From NCBI GenBank assembly GCA_019694595.1, contig JAIBBQ010000055.1, forward strand, positions 1 through 33,926: 33,926 nucleotides of DNA, in the 5' to 3' direction. The notes under the pieces were generated by a model. It did no database searches. It had not been told where the DNA came from and worked only from the letters and a program-made list of their open reading frames with translations. Shown here piece by piece: positions 5,081-22,230 of the stretch (positions are counted from its first letter, which is position 1; each line of letters opens with the position of its first letter). The stretch is from Myxococcaceae bacterium (lineage in GTDB: Bacteria > Myxococcota > Myxococcia > Myxococcales > Myxococcaceae). The position numbers were made by a program, and so were the translations under genes.

Positions 5081-6202
5081 ATGGCACACGAACTCACCCG
5101 GCGTGACGCGGTGGTTGGCCTCGCGGCCGCCGGCGCGGCGTGCGCGGAGAAGCCCAGGGCAATACAGGAAGGCGCGATGAGCACCACCGTCGACCCCGTC
5201 ACCGCCGTGCACGCGCTGGGCTTCGCCTGGCCGACGCCGGATCCGTTCCTCTTCTGCGTCCACCACGACGACCACTACCCCAAGGGCAACGAGCGCTTCG
5301 GGCCCGCGGCCTCGCTCGCCGGCCGCACCATCGGCCAGGATTTCGAAGGCAAGGACGGCTGGCGCATGTACCACGGCAGCGTGGTGCCGGGCTTTCCCCA
5401 GCACCCGCACCGCGGCTTCGAGACGGTGACGGTGGTGCGGCGCGGGCTGCTCGACCACTCGGACTCCATGGGCGCCGCCGCGCGCTACGGCCAGGGCGAC
5501 GTGCAGTGGCTCACCGCGGGCGCGGGCATCCAGCACGCGGAGATGTTCCCGCTGCTCCAGCAGTCGAAGGAGAACCCGGTCGAGCTGTTCCAGATCTGGC
5601 TCAACCTCCCGCGCGCCGACAAGCTCGCGACGCCGCACTTCTCGATGCTGTGGGGCCCGCAGATTCCCACCCACCAGTTGAAGGACGACGCCGGCCGCGC
5701 GGTGGAGGTGACCACCGTCGCCGGCACGCTGCTCGGCAAGGCACCGCCGAAGCCGCCGCCGAGCTCGTGGGCCTCGCGGCCCGACTCCGACGTCGCCATC
5801 TGGACGGTGAAGCTCTCGCCGCGCGCGCAGTGGACCTTGCCGGCCGCCAAGCCCGGCACCAACCGCTGGCTGTACTTCTTCAAGGGCGACGCGCTGCGCG
5901 TGGGCAGCCGCGCGCTCGACCCGTCGCACGCTGCCGAGCTCAAGCCCGACGTGGCGGTGACGCTGACCGGCGGCGCGCAGGAAGTCGAGGCGCTGGTGCT
6001 GCAGGGCCGGCCCATCGCCGAGCCGGTGGTGCAGTACGGGCCGTTCGTCATGAACAGCCGCGAGGAAATCCAGCAGACCTTCCTCGACTACCAGCGCACC
6101 CAATTCGGCGGCTGGCCGTGGAAGAGCGACGACCCGGTGCACGGCCGCGACGAAGGCCGCTTCGCCCGCCGCCCCGACGGCACCGTCGAGCGCCCCGCCT
6201 AG
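5081..6202 (+). CDS. Pirin-family cupin protein, with possible Tat-type leader
   Basis: This is a bicupin of the pirin family, up to 373 residues. The N-terminal cupin holds the four expected metal ligands: His108 and His110 in HPHRGFET, and His152 and Glu154 in QHAE. Pirins are iron proteins, some with quercetin 2,3-dioxygenase activity; the reaction here is not evident. The start is ambiguous. ATG 5081 gives a leader with TRRDAVVGLAAAGAACA, which resembles a twin-arginine signal, but it has no clear ribosome binding site. ATG 5177 (MSTTVDPV) has AGGAAGG just upstream and begins where a standard cytoplasmic pirin would. The gene lies 33 bases after the metalloprotease and may be co-transcribed with it. 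The family call is firm; the start and cell compartment are open. Confidence 0.9.
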   Translation: MAHELTRRDAVVGLAAAGAACAEKPRAIQEGAMSTTVDPVTAVHALGFAWPTPDPFLFCVHHDDHYPKGNERFGPAASLAGRTIGQDFEGKDGWRMYHGSVVPGFPQHPHRGFETVTVVRRGLLDHSDSMGAAARYGQGDVQWLTAGAGIQHAEMFPLLQQSKENPVELFQIWLNLPRADKLATPHFSMLWGPQIPTHQLKDDAGRAVEVTTVAGTLLGKAPPKPPPSSWASRPDSDVAIWTVKLSPRAQWTLPAAKPGTNRWLYFFKGDALRVGSRALDPSHAAELKPDVAVTLTGGAQEVEALVLQGRPIAEPVVQYGPFVMNSREEIQQTFLDYQRTQFGGWPWKSDDPVHGRDEGRFARRPDGTVERPA

Positions 6203-10692: not shown

Positions 10693-10704
10693 GGCCGCGC
10701 CTCA
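10690..10704. terminator. Perfect dyad made by the two convergent stop codons
   Basis: TGAGGC-CGC-GCCTCA is a perfect palindrome around a 3-base centre. Its outer triplets are the TGA of the kinase gene on the plus strand and the TGA of the TetR gene on the minus strand. It could act as a small bidirectional hairpin, but it has no T-run on either side. Confidence 0.3.
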
Positions 10705-11379
10705 GGCGGTGCGCGCGCGCAGGCCGTCGACCACCAGGGTCACCAGCGCCAGCGGAATCTCGAGCACGTTGCCCATCTCCTCGTCGAGGAGCACGCCGAG
10801 GAACAGCCGCTCCGCCGCGCCCACCACCGCGCGCGCGGTGACCGGCACCGGCAGTGGCTTGAGCAGCCCGTGCTTCTGGGCGACGGTGGACACTTCTTCC
10901 GCGAGGTCGATGACCCGCTTGGCGAGCGCGCCGATGGGCTTGCGGGTGCCCACCGCAGGCGCGCGGCATTCCTGGAGGTAGAGCCGCGCGGGCCCGGGCG
11001 ACTCGAGCAGCAGCGAACCCAGCGCCTCGCCGATGCCCCGGTAGGCTTCGATCTGCCGCTCGGCGGTGACCGCGTCTTCCAGCATGTCGCGCGCGGTGAT
11101 GAGCGCACTGGTGAGCGTGCGGCGCGCCGGGGCGATGAGCTCCTCGACCAGCGCTTCCTGGTCCTCGAAGTACCGGTAGAAGCTGCCCTTGGCCACGCCC
11201 GCCTTGGTGGTGATGTCGTCGACCGCCACGTTGGAGACGCCGTGGTCCAGGTACAGCAGCAGCGCCGCGTCGATGAGCGCCGCCTTGCGCGCCTTGCGGT
11301 TGGTGTCCCGCACGCCGCCGGGCTTGCCGGGTCGCTTGGAGCCACGAGGGACTTGTCTTTTTGATGACCGTCTGGTCAT
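10702..11379 (-). CDS. TetR/AcrR-family transcriptional regulator
   Basis: The product has 225 residues. After a basic N-terminal tail of about 25 residues there is a TetR-type helix-turn-helix: IDAALLLYLDHGVSNVAVDDI, then TKAGVAKGSFYRYFEDQEALV (about residues 35-80). The remaining helical region (about 85-225) is the ligand-binding and dimerisation domain; its ligand is unknown. The start ATG at 11379 lies within a perfect dyad, which fits autoregulation. The gene diverges, with 42 bases between starts, from a membrane hydroxylase-like gene that is the obvious regulatory target. Confidence 0.92.
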   Translation of the reverse strand: MTRRSSKRQVPRGSKRPGKPGGVRDTNRKARKAALIDAALLLYLDHGVSNVAVDDITTKAGVAKGSFYRYFEDQEALVEELIAPARRTLTSALITARDMLEDAVTAERQIEAYRGIGEALGSLLLESPGPARLYLQECRAPAVGTRKPIGALAKRVIDLAEEVSTVAQKHGLLKPLPVPVTARAVVGAAERLFLGVLLDEEMGNVLEIPLALVTLVVDGLRARTA

Positions 11380-11382
11380 GAT
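11353..11382 (+). promoter_or_regulatory. Candidate sigma-70-type promoter for the hydroxylase-like gene
   Basis: TTGTCT (11353-11358) and CATGAT (11377-11382) are separated by 18 bases and each match four of six consensus positions. The stretch is AT-richer than its surroundings. The TetR dyad fits between and over the two boxes, as expected for a repressor site. Confidence 0.4.
11364..11379. promoter_or_regulatory. Probable TetR-family operator
   Basis: ATGACC-GTCT-GGTCAT is a perfect 6-base inverted repeat with a 4-base centre. It sits in the divergent control region and includes the TetR start codon on the minus strand. Its size and GACC/GGTC half-sites resemble known TetR-family operators. 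Binding would block both genes. Confidence 0.6.
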
Positions 11383-11421
11383 TTGGCCTCGGACAGGCCG
11401 CGCAGGAGGCAGGAGCACGTC

Positions 11422-11991
11422 ATGGTCGGAATCCCGTTGGGTCTCGCGTGGGCGAATGCGTTCGAGTGGGTGTTCCACAAGTACATCCTTCACGAGCGAG
11501 GACAGGACAAGCGGAGTTTCTGGTCCTTCCATTGGCACGAGCATCATCGGGAGTCGCGCAAGCACGCCTTCGAGGACCCGTGCTACCGGCGCAGCGTCTT
11601 CAGCTGGTCGCCGCAGGGGAAGGAAGCGGCGGCGCTGGCGGCGGGCGCCGTGGCGGTGGCGCCGCTCTTCCCGGTGGCGCCCTTCTTCGTGGGTACGCTG
11701 TGGTGGAGCGCGCTCCACTACTACCGGGTGCACAAGCGCTCGCACCTGGACCCCGAGTGGGCGAAGGCGAACCTGCCCTGGCACTACGACCACCACATGG
11801 GGAAGGACCAGAACGCCAACTGGTGCGTCACCCACCCGTGGTTCGACTACGTGATGGGCACGCGCAAGCGCTACGACTACGACGAGAAGCTCAAGGCCAC
11901 CGAGCAGCTCGCGCCGGAGGCGGGCGGGGTGCTCGGGCGGGCGCGGCGCTACCTCGGCAACGTGGTGACGCAGGTGGCGCAGCCGATCTAG
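11422..11991 (+). CDS. Small membrane protein with histidine clusters, fatty acid hydroxylase-like
   Basis: The product has 189 residues, starting at an ATG preceded by AGGAGGCAGGAG. The histidine-rich motifs are HKYILH, HWHEHH, HYYRVHKRSH and WHYDHHMGKDQNANW. This arrangement is that of the fatty acid hydroxylase/sterol desaturase superfamily, which binds two irons at the membrane. Hydrophobic segments lie at about residues 1-20 and 70-95. The protein is short compared with typical members (about 250 or more residues), so it may be a compact subfamily. The gene is divergent from, and probably repressed by, the TetR regulator. The substrate, a lipid or a sterol-like molecule, is unknown. Confidence 0.75.
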   Translation: MVGIPLGLAWANAFEWVFHKYILHERGQDKRSFWSFHWHEHHRESRKHAFEDPCYRRSVFSWSPQGKEAAALAAGAVAVAPLFPVAPFFVGTLWWSALHYYRVHKRSHLDPEWAKANLPWHYDHHMGKDQNANWCVTHPWFDYVMGTRKRYDYDEKLKATEQLAPEAGGVLGRARRYLGNVVTQVAQPI

Positions 11992-12016
11992 CGGCGTTGG
12001 CGTAGGGTGGCGCGCG

Positions 12017-14935
12017 ATGGCCGAACCGGCACCGCCGCGCCCCTGGTGGCGCAAGAAACGCGTCCGCATTCCGCTCGCGCTGCTCGCGCTCTACACGCTG
12101 CTGGGCTTCGTGGTGCTGCCCCGCGTGCTGGAAGCGAAGCTCCCCGAGAAGCTCTCGCCGGTGCTCAAGCGCCCGGTGACGGTGGGGAAGATTCGCTTCA
12201 ACCCCTTCGCACTCGAGCTCGAGGTGCACGACTTCTCGGTCACCGAGAAGGACGGGGCGCCCTTCGTCGCCTTCCGCGCGCTCACGGTGAACGCGTCGTT
12301 CTTCGCGCTGCTGCGCGGGCGGGTGGGCTTCGACGCCATCGCGCTCGACGGGCTGCGCGCGAGCGTCACCTTGCTGCGCGGAGGCGCGCTGTCCTTCGCC
12401 GACCTGCTGGAGCCCGACCCGGCGGCGCCGCCGCCTCCTCCTCCGTCGAAGAGCGAGCCCGTCACCGTGAGCATCGCCGCGCTCAAGGTGAGCGACGGGG
12501 CCTTCACCTTCCGCGACTTGACGGGCGTGCAGCCCTTCACCGCGCAGCTCGAGCCGCTGGCGCTCGAGCTCCAGGACTTCACCACCGAGACGGGGAAAGG
12601 CAGCACCTACGCCTTCAAGGCGAAGCTGGGCGCCGCCACGCTGGACTACGAAGGCGACTTCAGCGCGCGCCCGCTCAAGTCGGCGGGCCGGCTGTCGATG
12701 CAAGGCATCCGGCTCCCGGTGGCGCAGCCGTACGTCGCCGGGCTGACGCAGCTCGAGCTGCTCGAAGGCGTGCTGGGCGTCTCCGCGCGCTACACGCTCG
12801 ACGGCTCGGCGGAGCCGCTGCAGCTCGCGCTGCACGACGCCAAGGTGACCCTCGACGGCCTCAAGGTGGGTGGCGTCGGCGAGGCACAGCCGGTGTTCGA
12901 GCTCGCGCAGCTCGAGGTCACCGCGCCCACGGTGGACGTGGCGGCCAAGCACGCGGAGGTGTCCGCGCTGGTGCTCAAGGGCGGCACGGTGCGCGCGCGG
13001 CGGGAGAAGGGCGGTCAGGTGCAGCTGGTGCGGCTCGCCAGTCGCCCGAAGGGCGGCGCCGCGGACGTGGTCGACGCGGGCGCGCCGGACCCGGCGCCGG
13101 TGGCGGCGACGCCTGCCCCGGCTCCCGCTCCCGCGCCCGCGCAGAAGCCCGGCTGGTCGGTCGCGCTGGGCCGCTTCGCGCTCGAGCAGTGGGCGCTCCA
13201 CTGGGCGGACCAGTCGCTCGAGTACCCGGTGGCGCTGGACCTGGACCAGCTCGACCTCGTGCTCCCGGACCTGAAGTGGCCCGAGCCCAGGCCCATCGAC
13301 GCGTCGCTCTCCTTCCGCTGGCAGGAGACGGGCACCGTGTCGCTCTCGGGGCCGGTGACGCTGGAGCCGCCCGGCGCCGCGCTCGCGCTCAAGGTGAAGG
13401 ACCTGAACTTGAAGCCCATCGACGGCTACCTCTGGGACTCGGGGCTCAACCTCACGCTGCAGCAAGGCGTGCTGGGCGCGGCGCTGGAACTCAAGGCCTC
13501 CGAAGGCGGCAAGCGCCTCGCGGTGAAGGGCGACGTGAACGTGGAGCAGCTCGCGCTGCTCGACGGCGACGACAAGCCGCTGATGGAGCTGCGCGCGCTG
13601 GGTCTCCAGGGGCTCGACTTGCAGTCCGCTCCGGCCGTGCAGGTGTCGCTCGAGGCGCTCAAGCTCGCCGGCCTCAAGCTGCGGGTGGAGAAGGACGCCA
13701 AGGGCGTGCTCAACCTCTCTCAGCTCTCGCGCGCCCCGGCGGCGCCTCCCGTCGCGCCCGCGCCGCCCGCGGCCGAAGGGCCACCGCCGACCGCGGCCAT
13801 CAAGGCGCTGGTGGTGGACGACCTCAACGTCGACTGGCTCGACAAGACGACGTCGCCGCCGTTCGCCACCGCGCTGTCCAAGCTCACCGGGAAGCTGACC
13901 CAGGTGACGTACCCGGTGAAGAAGCCGGTGGGCGTGGCGCTGGGGGCGCGGCTCGACCAGGCGCCGCTGCGCATCGGGGGCACGGTGCTGCCGCTGGGCA
14001 AGGCGCCGCTGGTGGACCTGACCGTCTCCCTCGAGGGCTACGACCTCTCCCACGCCACGCCGTACTCGGTGCAGTACGTGGCGCAGCCCATCAACGCCGG
14101 GAAGCTGGGGCTCGACGTGAAGGCCAAGCTCGCCTCGCGCAAGCTCGACTCCAGCACGCACGTCATCGTGGACCTGCTGGAGTTCGGCGAGAAGGTGGCG
14201 AACCCGGGGCCCGACGCGACGAGCCTGCCGCTGGGCCTCGCGGTGGCGGTGCTGAGCGACCGCAACGGCCGCATCGACCTCGAGCTGCCCATCCTCGGGG
14301 ACCAGGACGACCCGGATTTCCGCTGGGGCGGCGTGCTGTGGAAGGTGCTCACCACGCTGATGGAGAAGGTGGCCACCGCGCCCTTCGCGCTGCTGGGAAA
14401 TCTCCTCGGTGGCGCGGACCCCGAGGTGCTCAAGCTCATCGCGTTCGCTCCCGGGCAGAGCGTGGCGACGGGAGACGAGGCGAAGAAGCTCGACACCCTG
14501 GCCTCGCTGCTCAAGGACCGGCCGCAGCTCAAGCTCGAGCTGACTCCGGGCGCCGACGAGGTGACCGACCGGGATGCCCTGCGCCACCGCGCGCTGGAGC
14601 GCTCGCTCACCGCGCGCACGGGGCAGGGGGCCGTCGCGGACGGAGGCACGCCGGTGCTCGCGCGCGAGGACTACGAGCGGCTGGCGACGACGGCCTGGAA
14701 GAAGCTCGCGGTGGGGCGGCCCGACGCGGGCAGCGTGCCCTTCGCGGAGATGGAAGCGGAGCTGCTCGCGCGCCAGGTGGTGGCGCCGGAAGAGCTCGCG
14801 GAGCTCGGCCGCGACCGCGTCGCGTGGTGCCAGGCCGGGCTCGAGGAGCGGGGCGTCAGCGTCACCCGCGTCTTCTCGGTGCAGCCGGAAGGCGGCAAGG
14901 GCGCGCGCGCCCAGGTGGACATCGGGCTGCGCTAG
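12017..14935 (+). CDS. DUF748/AsmA-like envelope protein with OmpA-like C-terminal segment
   Basis: The product has 972 residues. It has one N-terminal transmembrane segment (about residues 17-37) after a basic start. A long beta-rich AsmA-like body follows, and then the DUF748 hallmark region with LGLDVKAKLASRKLDS, DLPI-type repeats (DLELPILGDQDDPDFRWG) and LLGNLLGG at about residues 695-800. A segment resembling the start of an OmpA-like domain follows (IAFAPGQSVATGDEAKKLDTLASLL). Proteins of this kind span the periplasm and are linked to envelope integrity or lipid transport. Pro-rich linkers (six Pro near residue 140; alternating Ala-Pro near 365) separate modules. The stop shares a CTAG tetranucleotide with the convergent ankyrin gene. 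Confidence 0.85.
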   Translation: MAEPAPPRPWWRKKRVRIPLALLALYTLLGFVVLPRVLEAKLPEKLSPVLKRPVTVGKIRFNPFALELEVHDFSVTEKDGAPFVAFRALTVNASFFALLRGRVGFDAIALDGLRASVTLLRGGALSFADLLEPDPAAPPPPPPSKSEPVTVSIAALKVSDGAFTFRDLTGVQPFTAQLEPLALELQDFTTETGKGSTYAFKAKLGAATLDYEGDFSARPLKSAGRLSMQGIRLPVAQPYVAGLTQLELLEGVLGVSARYTLDGSAEPLQLALHDAKVTLDGLKVGGVGEAQPVFELAQLEVTAPTVDVAAKHAEVSALVLKGGTVRARREKGGQVQLVRLASRPKGGAADVVDAGAPDPAPVAATPAPAPAPAPAQKPGWSVALGRFALEQWALHWADQSLEYPVALDLDQLDLVLPDLKWPEPRPIDASLSFRWQETGTVSLSGPVTLEPPGAALALKVKDLNLKPIDGYLWDSGLNLTLQQGVLGAALELKASEGGKRLAVKGDVNVEQLALLDGDDKPLMELRALGLQGLDLQSAPAVQVSLEALKLAGLKLRVEKDAKGVLNLSQLSRAPAAPPVAPAPPAAEGPPPTAAIKALVVDDLNVDWLDKTTSPPFATALSKLTGKLTQVTYPVKKPVGVALGARLDQAPLRIGGTVLPLGKAPLVDLTVSLEGYDLSHATPYSVQYVAQPINAGKLGLDVKAKLASRKLDSSTHVIVDLLEFGEKVANPGPDATSLPLGLAVAVLSDRNGRIDLELPILGDQDDPDFRWGGVLWKVLTTLMEKVATAPFALLGNLLGGADPEVLKLIAFAPGQSVATGDEAKKLDTLASLLKDRPQLKLELTPGADEVTDRDALRHRALERSLTARTGQGAVADGGTPVLAREDYERLATTAWKKLAVGRPDAGSVPFAEMEAELLARQVVAPEELAELGRDRVAWCQAGLEERGVSVTRVFSVQPEGGKGARAQVDIGLR

Positions 14936-16217: not shown

Positions 16218-16874
16218 TCAGCCCTTTGCGAGGCCGGCGACGACCCGGCGCGCCGCGGCCAGCCGCCTCGCGGGGTGTGCGTGAAAGCCCACCGGCCCCA
16301 GCACGCGGACCCCGGGATGCCGGCGCTCGAGCCAGCGCACATTGTGCTCCACCGACGCATCCACGCCGCGCACCGACTGCACCAGCACCACCGCCGCCAC
16401 CGGGAGCTTCCGCCGCGCGAGCTCCGCCAGCGAGAGCCCGACGTGGTTGAGCGTGCCCAGCCCGGCGCGCCCGACCAGCACCACCGGGAGCTGCAGTGCC
16501 TGCGCGAGGTCGGCCACGTCGTGGCGCCCATCGAGCGGCACCAGCAAGCCTCCGGCGCCTTCCACCACCGCGCACGCGCCCATCGCGCGCTCGAGGTGCC
16601 GGCGCACCTTGGCGAAGGACACCGGCCGCCGCTCGAGCTCCGCCGCCACGCCCGGCGCCAGGGGCGCGCGGAACCGCGCCACGCACACCTCGTCGAGGTC
16701 TTGCCGGGCGCCCGCACGGCGCCGCAGGAACTCCGCGTCGCCCACGCCGCCCGACTCGTACGGCTTGAACGCCCGGGGCTCGAGACCGTTCGACTCCAGC
16801 TCGGCGAGGAGCGCGCCCGACACCAGCGTCTTGCCCACGCCGGTGTCGGTGCCGGTGACGAAGAAGCGCTTCAC
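16218..16874 (-). CDS. bioD: Dethiobiotin synthetase
   Basis: The product has 218 residues, close to the usual length of BioD. It converts 7,8-diaminopelargonate, CO2 and ATP into dethiobiotin. The P-loop GTDTGVGKT lies at residues 8-16, the substrate-binding Lys is in FKPYESGG, and [11 protein letters not shown] carries the conserved Glu and glycine stretch. The start overlaps the stop of bioA by 4 bases (16871-16874). It is the last gene of the biotin operon. Confidence 0.95.
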
Positions 16875-18223
16875 CGGCCGCAGACCGCGTCGATGGACTC
16901 GCGCACCGCGCGCGTCAGCAACTCAGCCTCGTCGAGCGTGAGCGACAGCGGCGGCATCAGCACCAGCACGTTCCCCAGCGGCCGCAGCAGCACGCCGCGC
17001 TCGCGCGCCTTGCGGCACACCTGCATGCCCATGCGCTCTTCCGCCGGGTAGTCGAGCCGCTTCGCCTTGTCCTGCACCAGCTCGACGCCCACCATCAGGC
17101 CCCGCCGGCGCACGTCGCCCACGTGCGGGTGCCCAGTCAGCGGCCTGAGGCCCACCGCGAGCGTCTCCACCACCGGCTTGAGCTTCGCGAGCGTCTGCTC
17201 TTCCTCGAAGAGCTCCAGGTTCCGCAGCGCCACCGCGCACGCCAGCGGGTTCCCCGTGTACGTGTGCCCGTGGAAGAACGTCTTGGCGTCCTTCGCGCTG
17301 CCCAGGAAGGCGTCGAAGACCTGCGGCGTGGTGAGGGTCGCCGCGAGCGGCAGGTACCCGCCGGTGAGCCCCTTCGCCACGCACAGGAAGTCCGGCGCCA
17401 CGTCTTCCTGCTCCACCGCGAACATCGTCCCGGTGCGGCCGAAGCCGGTCGCCACCTCGTCGCAGATGAGCAGCACCTCGTGCTTGCGGCAGAGCGCGCG
17501 CAGGCCCGAGAGGAAGCCTTCCGGGTGCATCCACATGCCGGCGGCGCCCTGCACCAGCGGCTCCACCACCAGCGCGGCGAGCTCGTGCGCGTGCGCCGCC
17601 AGCAGCGCCTCGGCCTGCGCGAGCGCTTCCTTGAGCACGTCGGCGCCGCCCTTCCAGCGGTAGCGGTGCGGCGACGGCAGCCGCAGCACGTCGAACACCA
17701 GGTCCTGGAAGCGCTGGTGGAACAGCTCGATGCCGCCCACCGAGACCGCGCCCAGGGTGTCGCCGTGGTAGCTCTCTTCGAGCGCGGCGAAGCGGCGCTT
17801 CTGCGGCCGGCCCACCTGGCGCCAGTACTGGTACGCCATCTTGAGCGCCACCTCGACCGCGGTGGAGCCCGAGTCCGAATAGAAGACCTTCGACAGCCCG
17901 GGCGGCGCCAGCTCCGCGAGCTTCGCCGCCAGCTCGATGGCCGGCACGTTCGCCGCGCCCAGCAGCGTGCTGTGGGCGAGCTTGTCCACCTGGGCCTTGA
18001 GCGCCTCGTCGAGCGGCGCCTTGCGGTGCCCGTGCACCGTCACCCAGAGCGAGGAGATGCCGTCGAGGTAGCGGCGGCCCAGCGTGTCGATGAGCCAGTT
18101 GCCTTCGCCGCGCTCGATGATGAGCGGCTCGTCGCCCGGCCACAGCTGCATCTGGGTGAAGGGGTGCCAGACGTGCTTCAGGTCGAGCGCCCACAGCCGC
18201 TCGTGGCGCTCCTGCGGGGTCAC
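16871..18223 (-). CDS. bioA: Adenosylmethionine-8-amino-7-oxononanoate aminotransferase
   Basis: The product has 450 residues, a class III PLP aminotransferase that uses S-adenosylmethionine as amino donor to make 7,8-diaminopelargonate. The PLP lysine is Lys284 in AKGLTGG, and [13 protein letters not shown] holds the PLP-ring aspartate. The N-terminus HVWHPFTQM and the SLWVTVHGH region are typical of BioA. The start is GTG at 18223, overlapping the bioF stop (GTGA). It is the third gene of the operon. Confidence 0.95.
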
Positions 18224-19419
18224 AGCCGCGCCCCGGCGAAGGTCTCCAGCGCCTGCACCGGCACGCGCGGGAGCACCACCGCCAGCGCCTGCATCGCCCG
18301 CTCCAGGTGCTCCGGGGTGTGCGCCGCCGTCACCGTGAAGCGCAGGCAGCTCTTGCCCTGGGGCACCGTGGGCGGGCGAATCGCCTTCGCCAGCACGCCC
18401 TGGCGCCGCAGCGCGAGCGACGCTTCCACCGCGGCCTCGGGCGTGCCCAGCACCACGCTGAAGATGGCGGAGCGCGCCTTGGCGGGCAGGCCGAAGTGCT
18501 GCAGCCCTTCGGCGAAGGTGCGGATGTTGTTCCACAGCCGCTCGCGCAGCGAGGAGTCGACCCGCAGCCGCTCCAGCGCCGCGGCGCCGACCCACGCCAG
18601 CACCGGCGACATCGCGGTGGAGAAGACGAACGAGCGGCTCTGGTTGAGGAAGAGGTCGCACAGCGTGCGGCTCGCGCCCGCGAAGGCCCCTGCGCTGCCC
18701 AGCGCCTTGGACAGCGTGCCCAGCTTCACGTCGGGGGTGACGCCAGCGCCCTCGCACGCGCCGCCGCCCGTGGGGCCGAGCACGCCGAGCGCGTGGGCCT
18801 CGTCGACCATCAGCGCCGCGCCGTGGTGCGCGCACACCAGCGCGAGCTCGGCGAGCGGCGCCACGTCGCCTTCCATCGAGAAGACCGCGTCGGTCACCAC
18901 CAGCTTGCGCTTGGCGTTGGACGCGTGGAGCTGGTGCTGCAGCGCCTCCACGTCGGCGTGCGGGTAGATGTGCACCTGCGCGCGCGACAGCCGGCAGCCG
19001 TCGATGAGGCTCGCGTGGTTGAGCGCGTCGGAGAAGACCGCGTCGCCGGGGCCCACCAGCGCGCTGATGAGGCCCACGTTGCCCGCGTAGCCCGAGGTGA
19101 AGGCCAGCGCGCTCTCGGTGGCGAAGACGCGCGCCGCCGCCTCTTCCAGCGCGCGGTGCGCCGGTCCGTCGCCCACCACCAGGCGCGAGGCGCCCGCGCC
19201 CACGCCGAACAGGTCGACCGCCTGGTGCGCCGCGGCGATGAGCCCGGGGTCGCTGGAGAGCCCGAGGTAGTCGTTGGACGAGAAGTTCACCAGCGCGCCG
19301 CCGCCCTCGAGCTGCACCACCGGGCCCTGACGGGACACCAGCGGCTCCAGGGTGCGCTTGAGCCCGCGCGCCTCGAGCGCGGCGAGGGTCTCCTTCGCCC
19401 AGCCGTCGGCGACGCCCAC
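18220..19419 (-). CDS. bioF: 8-amino-7-oxononanoate synthase
   Basis: The product has 399 residues and belongs to the alpha-oxoamine synthase family. It condenses pimeloyl-ACP or pimeloyl-CoA with alanine, the first committed step after pimelate synthesis. [14 protein letters not shown] near residue 45, the [13 protein letters not shown] motif and PLP Lys238 in [12 protein letters not shown] are all present. The start is GTG at 19419, 6 bases after the bioB stop. The genes that make the pimeloyl substrate (bioC, bioH) are not in the window. Confidence 0.95.
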
Positions 19420-19425
19420 GACCGG

Positions 19426-20466
19426 TCAGCTCCGCGCCGGAGCGCCCGTGGTGTCGGGCTCGAGCGGCTTCACGCCGGCGTCGGCGAGCAGCTTCATGTC
19501 GGCGGCGAACTCGGGGTTCGCGGTGGTGAGCAGGGTGTCGCCGAAGAAGATGGAGTTGGCGCCCGCGAGCATGCACAGCAGCTGCGCTTCCTGCGACAGC
19601 GACAGCCGGCCGGCGGACAGGCGCACCATCGCGCCCGGCATCAGGATGCGCGCGGTGGCGATCATCCGCACCAGCTCCACCGGCTCGACCTGCTTGCTGC
19701 CCGCGAGCGGCGTGCCTTCCACCGGCACCAGCGCGTTCACCGGCACCGACTCCGGGTGGTGCTCCTGGTTGGCGAGCGTCACCAGCATGCCGCAGCGGTC
19801 GTCGATGGACTCGCCCATGCCGATGATGCCGCCCGAGCACACGCTGATGCCCGCCGCGCGCACGCGCGCCAGCGTCTTCAGCCGGTCGTCGTAGGTGCGG
19901 GTGGAGATGATGTCGCCGTACTTCTCGGCCGAGGTGTCGAGGTTGTGGTTGTACGCGGTGAGGCCGGCTTCCTTCAGGCGCTTGGCCTGCGAGTCGCTCA
20001 GCATGCCCAGCGTGCAGCACGCCTCCATGCCCAGCGCGCGCACGCCGCGCACCATGTCGAGCACCGAGTCGAACTGGGGGCCGTCCTTCACCTCGCGCCA
20101 GGCGGCGCCCATGCAGAAGCGGGTGGCGCCGGCCTGACGGGCCTGCTTCGCCGACTCCAGCACCTGCTGCACCTGCATCAGCTTCTCGGCCTTGACCCCG
20201 GTGTCGTAGCGCGCGGCCTGCGGGCAGTACGAGCAGTCCTCGGAGCAGCCGCCCGTCTTGATGGACAGCAGGCTGCAGAGCTGCACCGCGTTGTCCTTGA
20301 ACACCGCCCGGTGCACCGTCTGCGCGCGGTAGACGAGGTCGAGCAGCGGCGTGTCGTGAATCGCGCGGACCTCGGCGACGGTCCAGTCGTGGCGCAGCGG
20401 AATTTCCTGGGGCACCGCGGGGCCGTGGTGCGTGTGGGCGTGGCCGGTAAACGCGTGGTCGGACAT
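19426..20466 (-). CDS. bioB: Biotin synthase (radical SAM)
   Basis: The product has 346 residues. It inserts sulfur into dethiobiotin using a radical-SAM [4Fe-4S] cluster and a second [2Fe-2S] cluster. The cluster cysteines are Cys74, Cys78 and Cys81 in [27 protein letters not shown] and RLSAGR, all typical of BioB, are also present. The N-terminus has an unusual histidine-rich start (His4, 9, 11, 13 and 14). It is the first gene of the operon and is preceded by a candidate promoter and BirA-type operator. Confidence 0.96.
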
Positions 20467-20514: not shown

Positions 20515-20543
20515 TGGTTAGAAGGCGTCCGCCCGCTTGTCAA
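20515..20543 (-). promoter_or_regulatory. Candidate promoter of the biotin operon
   Basis: On the minus strand, a perfect -35 TTGACA (20538-20543) is followed after 17 bases by TAACCA (20515-20520), a weak -10. The -35 lies inside the BirA-like operator, which is the usual geometry for repression. The leader to the bioB ATG would be about 40-50 bases. Confidence 0.45.
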
Positions 20544-20568
20544 CCCGACGCGACCCACGGGTTGACGA
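20537..20568. promoter_or_regulatory. BirA-type biotin operator
   Basis: TTGTCAACC (20537-20545), 14 bases, then GGTTGACGA (20560-20568). The known BirA operator has the form TTGTAAACC-N14 to N16-GGTTTACAA, so spacing and half-site pattern agree. The core GTCAACCC and GGGTTGAC are perfect inverted repeats. It lies directly before bioB, so repression by biotinylated BirA with a DNA-binding domain is predicted. The alternative, a terminator for the gene ending at 20578, is less likely because there is no T-run. Confidence 0.7.
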
Positions 20569-20577
20569 GGCTCGCGG

Positions 20578-22143
20578 TCACTTCACGTCGACGGGCTCGA
20601 AGCCCTTGGGAGCCTTCTCGCGCGTGGCGGCGGGCTGCACCTCGCCCTTGGCCAGCGGGAAGGGGCTCACCTCACCGCTCGCTGCTTTGCCCTTGGCCTC
20701 GAGCTGCTGCGCCTCTTCCGGCGTCAGCAAGGCGACCACGTCCTTCATCTCCGGCGTGGGCTTGAGGCTCAGCCCTTCCTTCGCGGCCTCGCCGAGCAGC
20801 TTCTTGGCGTCGTCCTTCTTGTCCTGCTTGAAGGCCAGCAGCGCGAGGTTGAGCTTCGCGCGGCCGCGGGTGCGCCACTCGCCGGGCGCCTTGGCCGAGG
20901 CGTAGGCGCGGGTGAGCAGCGCATTCGCGTCGTCGAGCTTGCCCGCGAGCAGCTTGGCGTAGCCCAGCCGCACCAGCACCTCGCCGCGCACGTCCTTCTT
21001 CGCCGCGAGCGGCTCCAGCACCGCCATCGCCTTGTCGAGCTGCCCGCCGTCGACGTAGCGGCTCGCGAGCTCGAGCGAGAGCTCCTCGGAGTCGGGGTCG
21101 AAGGCCAGCGCCTTCTCCGCGAAGCTCGCCGCCTCCGCCGTCTTGCCCAGCTTGGCGAGGCTGCCCGCGAGCCGGGAGATGATGAAGGCGTTGGTCGGCG
21201 TGCGCGCCGCGTACTCCTGCCACAGCCGCGCCGCGTCCTGGTGGCGGCCGAGCGCGGTGTAGAGCTCGGGCAGGTAGGTGCGCGCGAGCAGGAAGCCGGG
21301 GAGCGTGGCGATGGCCTCGAGCAGCACCTTCTCGCCCGCCTCGCCCGACTGGTAGCGCGTCACCAGCCAGAAGCGCGCGAGGATGGCGTTGGCCACCGGC
21401 GTGCCCGAAGCCTTGGCCTGCGAGAGCGCGAAGACGGCGCGCTCGTCGTTGCCCAGGAAGGCGGCCGCCAGCGCGAGCGAGCCCCACGCTGCGTGGAGCT
21501 GCGGATCGGCCTTCACCGCCGCGCCGCACAGGCCCACTGCGCGGGTGAGCTGCACCTGATTGAGCACGGTGGGGTTCTCGAGGCCGAGCGGCTGCTCGAG
21601 CAGGAGCGCCTGGCAGGCGGCGAAGTCGCGCATCGCCCCGTCCTTCGACGGCAGCGCGGTGGGGAACGGGTCTTCCTTCACGCCCTGCGCCGCGCGCACC
21701 GCGGAGGCGATGGCCGTGGCCGCCGCCGGCACCAGCACCGCTTCGCCCGCGGGGAACTCGACGCTCCCTTCCTTCACGCCGACCTCGCCCACCTTGCCCA
21801 CCGCGTAGTCGAGCTTCCAGCCCTTGGGCGTCTTGGTGGCAGTGCTGTAGGCGAAGACGCGGGCACCCACGCGCTCCGCGGCCTGGCGCGCCACGTTGGG
21901 GTCGCCCATGGCGTCGAGCTTCATGCGGTGCCGGCTCGCCATGTTCGCCAGCTGCCGCCCGTGCAGCACCCACTCGCGCTTGCTGAGCAAGAGCGCGCTC
22001 GCGTGCTCCTGGATGGCGAGCGCGATGCCCTCGGAGGCGCGGCCGCCCTGGAAGGCCGGCGGCAGCACCACCACCACCGGAGACTCCGCCGCCGAGGCGG
22101 TGAGGGACAGGCACAGCGCGGCCACGGCGAAGGAGCGGGTCAT
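20578..22143 (-). CDS. Secreted TPR-repeat protein
   Basis: The product has 521 residues with a signal peptide (MTRSFAVAALCLSLTASAA). The N-terminal domain (about 20-150) starts with VVVVLPPAFQG and includes a Rossmann-like alternation seen in CsgG/FlgO/TolB-type N-terminal domains; this resemblance is loose. From about residue 185 to 460 there are TPR-like helical repeats. The C-terminus is Lys/Pro-rich. It is probably a periplasmic protein that scaffolds other proteins. The ATG at 22143 is set by the signal peptide; no clear ribosome binding site precedes it. The gene ends 111 bases before bioB and is not expected to share its promoter. Confidence 0.82.
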   Translation of the reverse strand: MTRSFAVAALCLSLTASAAESPVVVVLPPAFQGGRASEGIALAIQEHASALLLSKREWVLHGRQLANMASRHRMKLDAMGDPNVARQAAERVGARVFAYSTATKTPKGWKLDYAVGKVGEVGVKEGSVEFPAGEAVLVPAAATAIASAVRAAQGVKEDPFPTALPSKDGAMRDFAACQALLLEQPLGLENPTVLNQVQLTRAVGLCGAAVKADPQLHAAWGSLALAAAFLGNDERAVFALSQAKASGTPVANAILARFWLVTRYQSGEAGEKVLLEAIATLPGFLLARTYLPELYTALGRHQDAARLWQEYAARTPTNAFIISRLAGSLAKLGKTAEAASFAEKALAFDPDSEELSLELASRYVDGGQLDKAMAVLEPLAAKKDVRGEVLVRLGYAKLLAGKLDDANALLTRAYASAKAPGEWRTRGRAKLNLALLAFKQDKKDDAKKLLGEAAKEGLSLKPTPEMKDVVALLTPEEAQQLEAKGKAASGEVSPFPLAKGEVQPAATREKAPKGFEPVDVK

Positions 22144-22230
22144 GGGGGCGCACGATGCCAAAGCGCGCGGCGTCGCGGGAGGCAATTGCGCGCCACCGGC
22201 CGAGGCGTAGATTCCCGCGCGCCTCACCCC

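Follow-up and report, generated by a model that had tools for sequence, protein, structure and literature searches.

A probable BirA operator over the promoter of a bioBFAD operon in the Myxococcaceae

The DNA analysed here, referred to throughout as the window, is a stretch of 33,926 nucleotides from a Myxococcaceae bacterium (assembly GCA_019694595.1, contig JAIBBQ010000055.1, positions 1 to 33,926). It carries four biotin synthesis genes, all on the minus strand and in the order bioB-bioF-bioA-bioD. Specifically, these are bioB, encoding biotin synthase (19426..20466; TIGR00433, 395 bits against a cut-off of 225); bioF, encoding 8-amino-7-oxononanoate synthase (18220..19419; best hit TIGR00858, at 416 bits just below the cut-off of 426); bioA, encoding adenosylmethionine--8-amino-7-oxononanoate transaminase (16871..18196, start approximate; TIGR00508, 558 bits, cut-off 405); and bioD, encoding dethiobiotin synthase (16218..16874; TIGR00347, 135 bits, cut-off 83). 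bioB and bioF are 6 bases apart and bioF and bioA about 23, while bioD shares 4 bases with the end of bioA. The bioBFAD operon proposed in a preliminary description of this DNA is thus borne out by matches to curated families, with bioF falling marginally short. An ORF at 16923-18194 was also considered as bioA and rejected, being in the wrong frame and having no family match; the frame that holds bioA is that of ORF 16871-20020. No BioC above the cut-off was found in the organism's own genome, which gave weak methyltransferase matches (best 82 bits, cut-off 185). The gene upstream of the operon encodes a TPR-repeat protein (20578..22227, minus strand; PF14559 and other TPR families) and is not thought to be part of the biotin unit. 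Elsewhere in the window are genes for a large DUF748 protein (12017-14935, plus strand, 699 bits) and a Pirin family protein (5081-6202, plus strand).

Between the TPR-repeat gene, whose stop codon is at 20578, and bioB, whose ATG is at 20466, lies an inverted repeat, TTGTCAACC-N14-GGTTGACGA (20537..20568, no strand assigned), which reads TCGTCAACC-N14-GGTTGACAA on the operon strand and lies 70 bases upstream of the bioB start, before the biotin synthesis genes bioB-bioF-bioA-bioD. Its arms stretch two bases further inwards, as TTGTCAACCCG-N10-CGGGTTGACGA, with one mismatch between them. The repeat fits the BirA palindrome TTGTAAACC-N14/15-GGTTTACAA, in which base five is unscored and the C/G found there is a published variant; it matches 15 of the 16 scored consensus bases with an N14 spacer. 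The palindrome stands in the DNA exactly as originally described. The C/G in place of A/T is likewise present as described, but at base five of a nine-base half-site and not at base four; its reading as a GC-adapted form is conjectural, since Geobacter and Desulfuromonas are listed with this variant too. None of 100 shuffled versions of the window contained the exact pattern, although, as this pattern was derived from the site itself, the published consensus is a fairer test. Using TTGTNAACC-N14-GGTTNACAA with base five free and up to three mismatches, one place was found in the window, against a shuffle mean of 0.02. Across the genome of 7,275,791 bases the box is the sole site with fewer than three mismatches at N14 (it has one), three other sites having three, and a second exact copy was not found in this genome even when spacers of 15 or 16 bases were also allowed.

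The operon-proximal half-site contains a perfect TTGACA -35 hexamer (20538..20543, minus strand), so the proposed overlap of box and -35 is also correct. With a 17-base spacer, the probable -10 is TAACCA (20515..20520, minus strand), a weak match that shares two of six bases with TATAAT, and a strict scan for the sigma-70 consensus called no promoter at the box. When the 17-base spacer is assumed for relatives, 15 of 22 genera have a majority of A at -11 and 11 of 22 a majority of T at -7, the pattern expected of a GC-rich -10; the -10 of the window has A at -11 and also A at -7. The overlap of the -35 with the box supports repression by steric block, itself a mechanism that we infer.

An inverted repeat in this position could also act as RNA, for example as a terminator of the upstream TPR-repeat gene, for it lies nine bases past the stop codon of that gene and its arms are able to pair. 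However, no terminator-like site was found, an Rfam scan of the window gave no match, and across genera it is the letters of the half-sites that recur, beyond mere pairing. We therefore regard a role as RNA as highly improbable and the BirA operator as the far better reading.

Conservation of the box had been named beforehand as a point on which the BirA reading could fail. Among 96 genomes of the same family, 90 have a bioB over the cut-off (the closest named relatives by bioB are Myxococcaceae, Myxococcus qinghaiensis among them), and 89 upstream regions were counted, one genome (G068) being dropped as the start of its bioB is missing. When a site had to match 13 or more of the 16 bases, with a 14- or 15-base spacer and no further than 300 bases upstream of bioB, the box was found to precede bioB in 84 of the 89 regions and in 22 of 23 genera, the genus count being the fairer figure because close relatives are not independent; none of 1780 dinucleotide-preserving shuffles reached the threshold (maximum 12). 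Invariance in counts of the half-site columns follows by construction, as the search pattern, which 83 of the 89 regions fit, fixes most bases, and is given no weight here. The five misses are the three genomes of one genus, g23 (G125, G126 and G127), together with G055 and G082. G055 (L131) counts as a miss owing to a bioB at a contig edge, and a box adjoins its second bioB fragment (G055:C43:457). In G082 the distal half is replaced by other sequence, while the proximal TTGACAA survives. A GC-rich inverted repeat, ggaccggtgctcccgaggctgggggcaccggtcc, occupies the place of the distal half-site in this genome (L173), just ahead of TTGACAA.

It could be argued from these data that the promoter alone is conserved, TTGACA being retained for its role as the -35 hexamer and the distal half being there by chance; TTGACA lies in the proximal half-site of 83 of the 84 family sites (the exception is L169), and TTGACAA or near remnants of it remain without a distal half in G082 and g23. 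Yet all 84 family sites have the distal half, separated from the proximal one by 14 or 15 bases of variable sequence, and in the sister family f3 the proximal half is GGTTGACGA, so that the box has been kept there in spite of an imperfect TTGACA. Conservation of the promoter alone is accordingly very unlikely to be the explanation.

Outside the family, the box was found in 23 of 41 upstream regions of the order, comprising all 22 regions from f3 and one from family f7, with 13-15 of 16 bases matched; none was found at bioB in ten regions of family f2 or in eight of other families. In f3, second boxes precede genes for BioH-like hydrolases at all five loci that were scanned with profiles (G016, G017, G021, G022 and G024), and in G021 the BioH-like gene is followed by one for a BioC-like methyltransferase. 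These names are likely rather than certain, as the scores lie under the curated cut-offs: the bioH matches reach 109-147 bits against 207, with a PcaDC model slightly above bioH in G022, and the BioC-like match, from a partial gene, reaches 146 bits against 185. G137 has another box ahead of bioF and bioA, which both score above their cut-offs. The suggestion that further boxes would lie near bioC or bioH is thus upheld in the sister family but not in the organism's own genome, which has one box.

The preliminary description had also predicted that the host possesses a BirA with a DNA-binding domain. The whole genome yields one match to PF03099 (BPL_LplA_LipB), and the protein carrying it, its only biotin ligase, does have an N-terminal HTH_11 domain. 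Its 331 residues comprise HTH_11 (11-62), BPL (94-215) and BPL_C (280-325), all above the Pfam cut-offs, and it scores 57.8 bits with TIGR00122 (birA_repr_reg), below the NCBIfam cut-off of 70. Its alignment with E. coli BirA (1bia) extends over residues 13-325 and takes in the helix-turn-helix, where lglsrtavwkhvevlr stands opposite lgmsraainkhiqtlr, and the ligase motif, where gkgrrgr stands opposite grgrrgr. Judged by this N-terminal helix-turn-helix together with ligase and C-terminal domains, this full-length enzyme is classed as a Group II biotin-protein ligase (BirA). The birA gene and the bio operon are on different contigs, and the genome yielded no box other than that upstream of bioB.

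Retention of the DNA-binding domain by the host BirA bears on a further possibility, namely that the site belongs to a different biotin regulator, for instance BioR of the GntR family or BioQ of the TetR family. The BioR palindrome is TTATMKATAA, and with up to one mismatch it has no match in the window, which counts against BioR. BioR does control biotin genes in some alphaproteobacteria (PMC5343134; PMC4554459), and an ORF with a TetR_N domain lies within the window. Since the motif at the site is the BirA consensus, and the BirA of the host has kept its DNA-binding domain, we give binding by such a regulator scarcely any weight and retain BirA as the probable cognate protein. The ORF in question (10702-12069, minus strand) has the TetR_N domain in its second half, and its true start is probably internal.

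If BirA reads the box, genomes whose repressor has no DNA-binding domain might also be without the operator, and the family provides a natural test of this. In the three genomes of g23 the frame of BirA has 16-24 residues before the ligase match, which is too short for a winged helix-turn-helix, and the box is absent from its usual place; absence of box and helix-turn-helix together is observed directly in this genus. G125 has a site 318 bases upstream that matches at 13 of 16 bases and has a spacer of 16; it falls outside the count, which was limited to 300 bases and spacers of 14-15. G126 has a match with two mismatches elsewhere in its genome. The scan for boxes over multiple genomes covered 52 of 145 genomes of the order, and a control with the reversed pattern matched in 3 of these 52, so single matches of this kind are expected by chance. 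The loss of the helix-turn-helix in g23 is one event within a box-bearing family. A further five genomes (G009, G037, G040, G140 and G144) have bioB, a BirA match that begins after the helix-turn-helix, and no box, but belong to families in which the box was not seen in any case; in G009 and G144 the open frame extends 131 and 280 residues, respectively, upstream of the ligase match. In the other direction, G026 and G121 have the box and no BirA match, and G032 has the box with a fragment of BirA. Wherever both can be read, the box is accompanied by a BirA with the helix-turn-helix. The converse fails, as nine f2 genomes and G038, G039, G143, G041 (where the upstream region is short) and G082 have a BirA with the helix-turn-helix region but no box at bioB, and the link is therefore not absolute.

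With the site, its conservation, the operon, the domains of BirA and the joint absence of box and helix-turn-helix in one genus all observed directly, we are confident that the palindrome is the BirA operator of the bioBFAD operon. BirA is a bifunctional biotin-protein ligase and repressor, and our account of binding, dimerisation, the co-repressor and repression is carried over by analogy from the E. coli protein. When biotin is ample and apo-carboxylase acceptors are exhausted, BirA would carry biotinyl-5'-AMP and dimerise, and the two winged helix-turn-helix domains of the dimer would sit on the two half-sites. Because the TTGACA -35 lies inside the operon-proximal half-site, RNA polymerase would be blocked by BirA on the operator. 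With acceptors in good supply, the adenylate would be used for ligation, BirA would leave the DNA and the operon would be expressed. The bio operator of E. coli has the same palindrome spacing and the same type of half-site and overlaps its promoter; it differs in having A/T at half-site base five, where C/G is found here. The biotin genes of E. coli are arranged as a divergent bioA / bioBFCD pair, whereas here there is one operon in a single direction.

The site is an ordinary one of an already described kind, as the same form was published in 2004 for related bacteria. In Table 1 of that study, TTGTcAACC-[N14]-GGTTgACgA precedes bioF in two Geobacter species, and half-site variants with C/G also occur in Desulfuromonas (Rodionov et al., 2004; PMC545781). 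The half-sites, their order and the N14 spacer are identical to those of the bioF sites in G. sulfurreducens and G. metallireducens, and the position ahead of biotin genes is shared with the boxes of Geobacter, Desulfuromonas and Desulfovibrio; unlike in Geobacter, where the identical form stands before bioF, the site here stands before bioB, and myxobacteria do not appear in the table (PMC545781). A second source places BirA regulons in the gamma and delta subdivisions and reports that alpha and beta groups have lost the DNA-binding domain (PMC5343134). Among the matches listed in searches of the literature on BirA in myxobacteria none concerned this operator in that group, which is weak evidence that it is absent from the literature. 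The finding leaves the understanding of BirA unchanged; counted directly, a vitamin regulon already known now takes in one myxobacterial family and a sister family.

Family f2 keeps a BirA with a helix-turn-helix, at about 50% identity, and has no recognisable box at bioB; inspection of its upstream regions did not find a BirA-like palindrome. BirA in this family may thus recognise another operator or have other target genes. That the DNA-binding role of BirA has been lost or rewired more than once within the order is a possibility we put forward tentatively, and we lean somewhat against it. Several of the f2 regions (L247-L256) carry TGATACT, TGCTACC or similar motifs resembling an extended -10 shortly upstream of the bioB start codon; transcription there could be leaderless.
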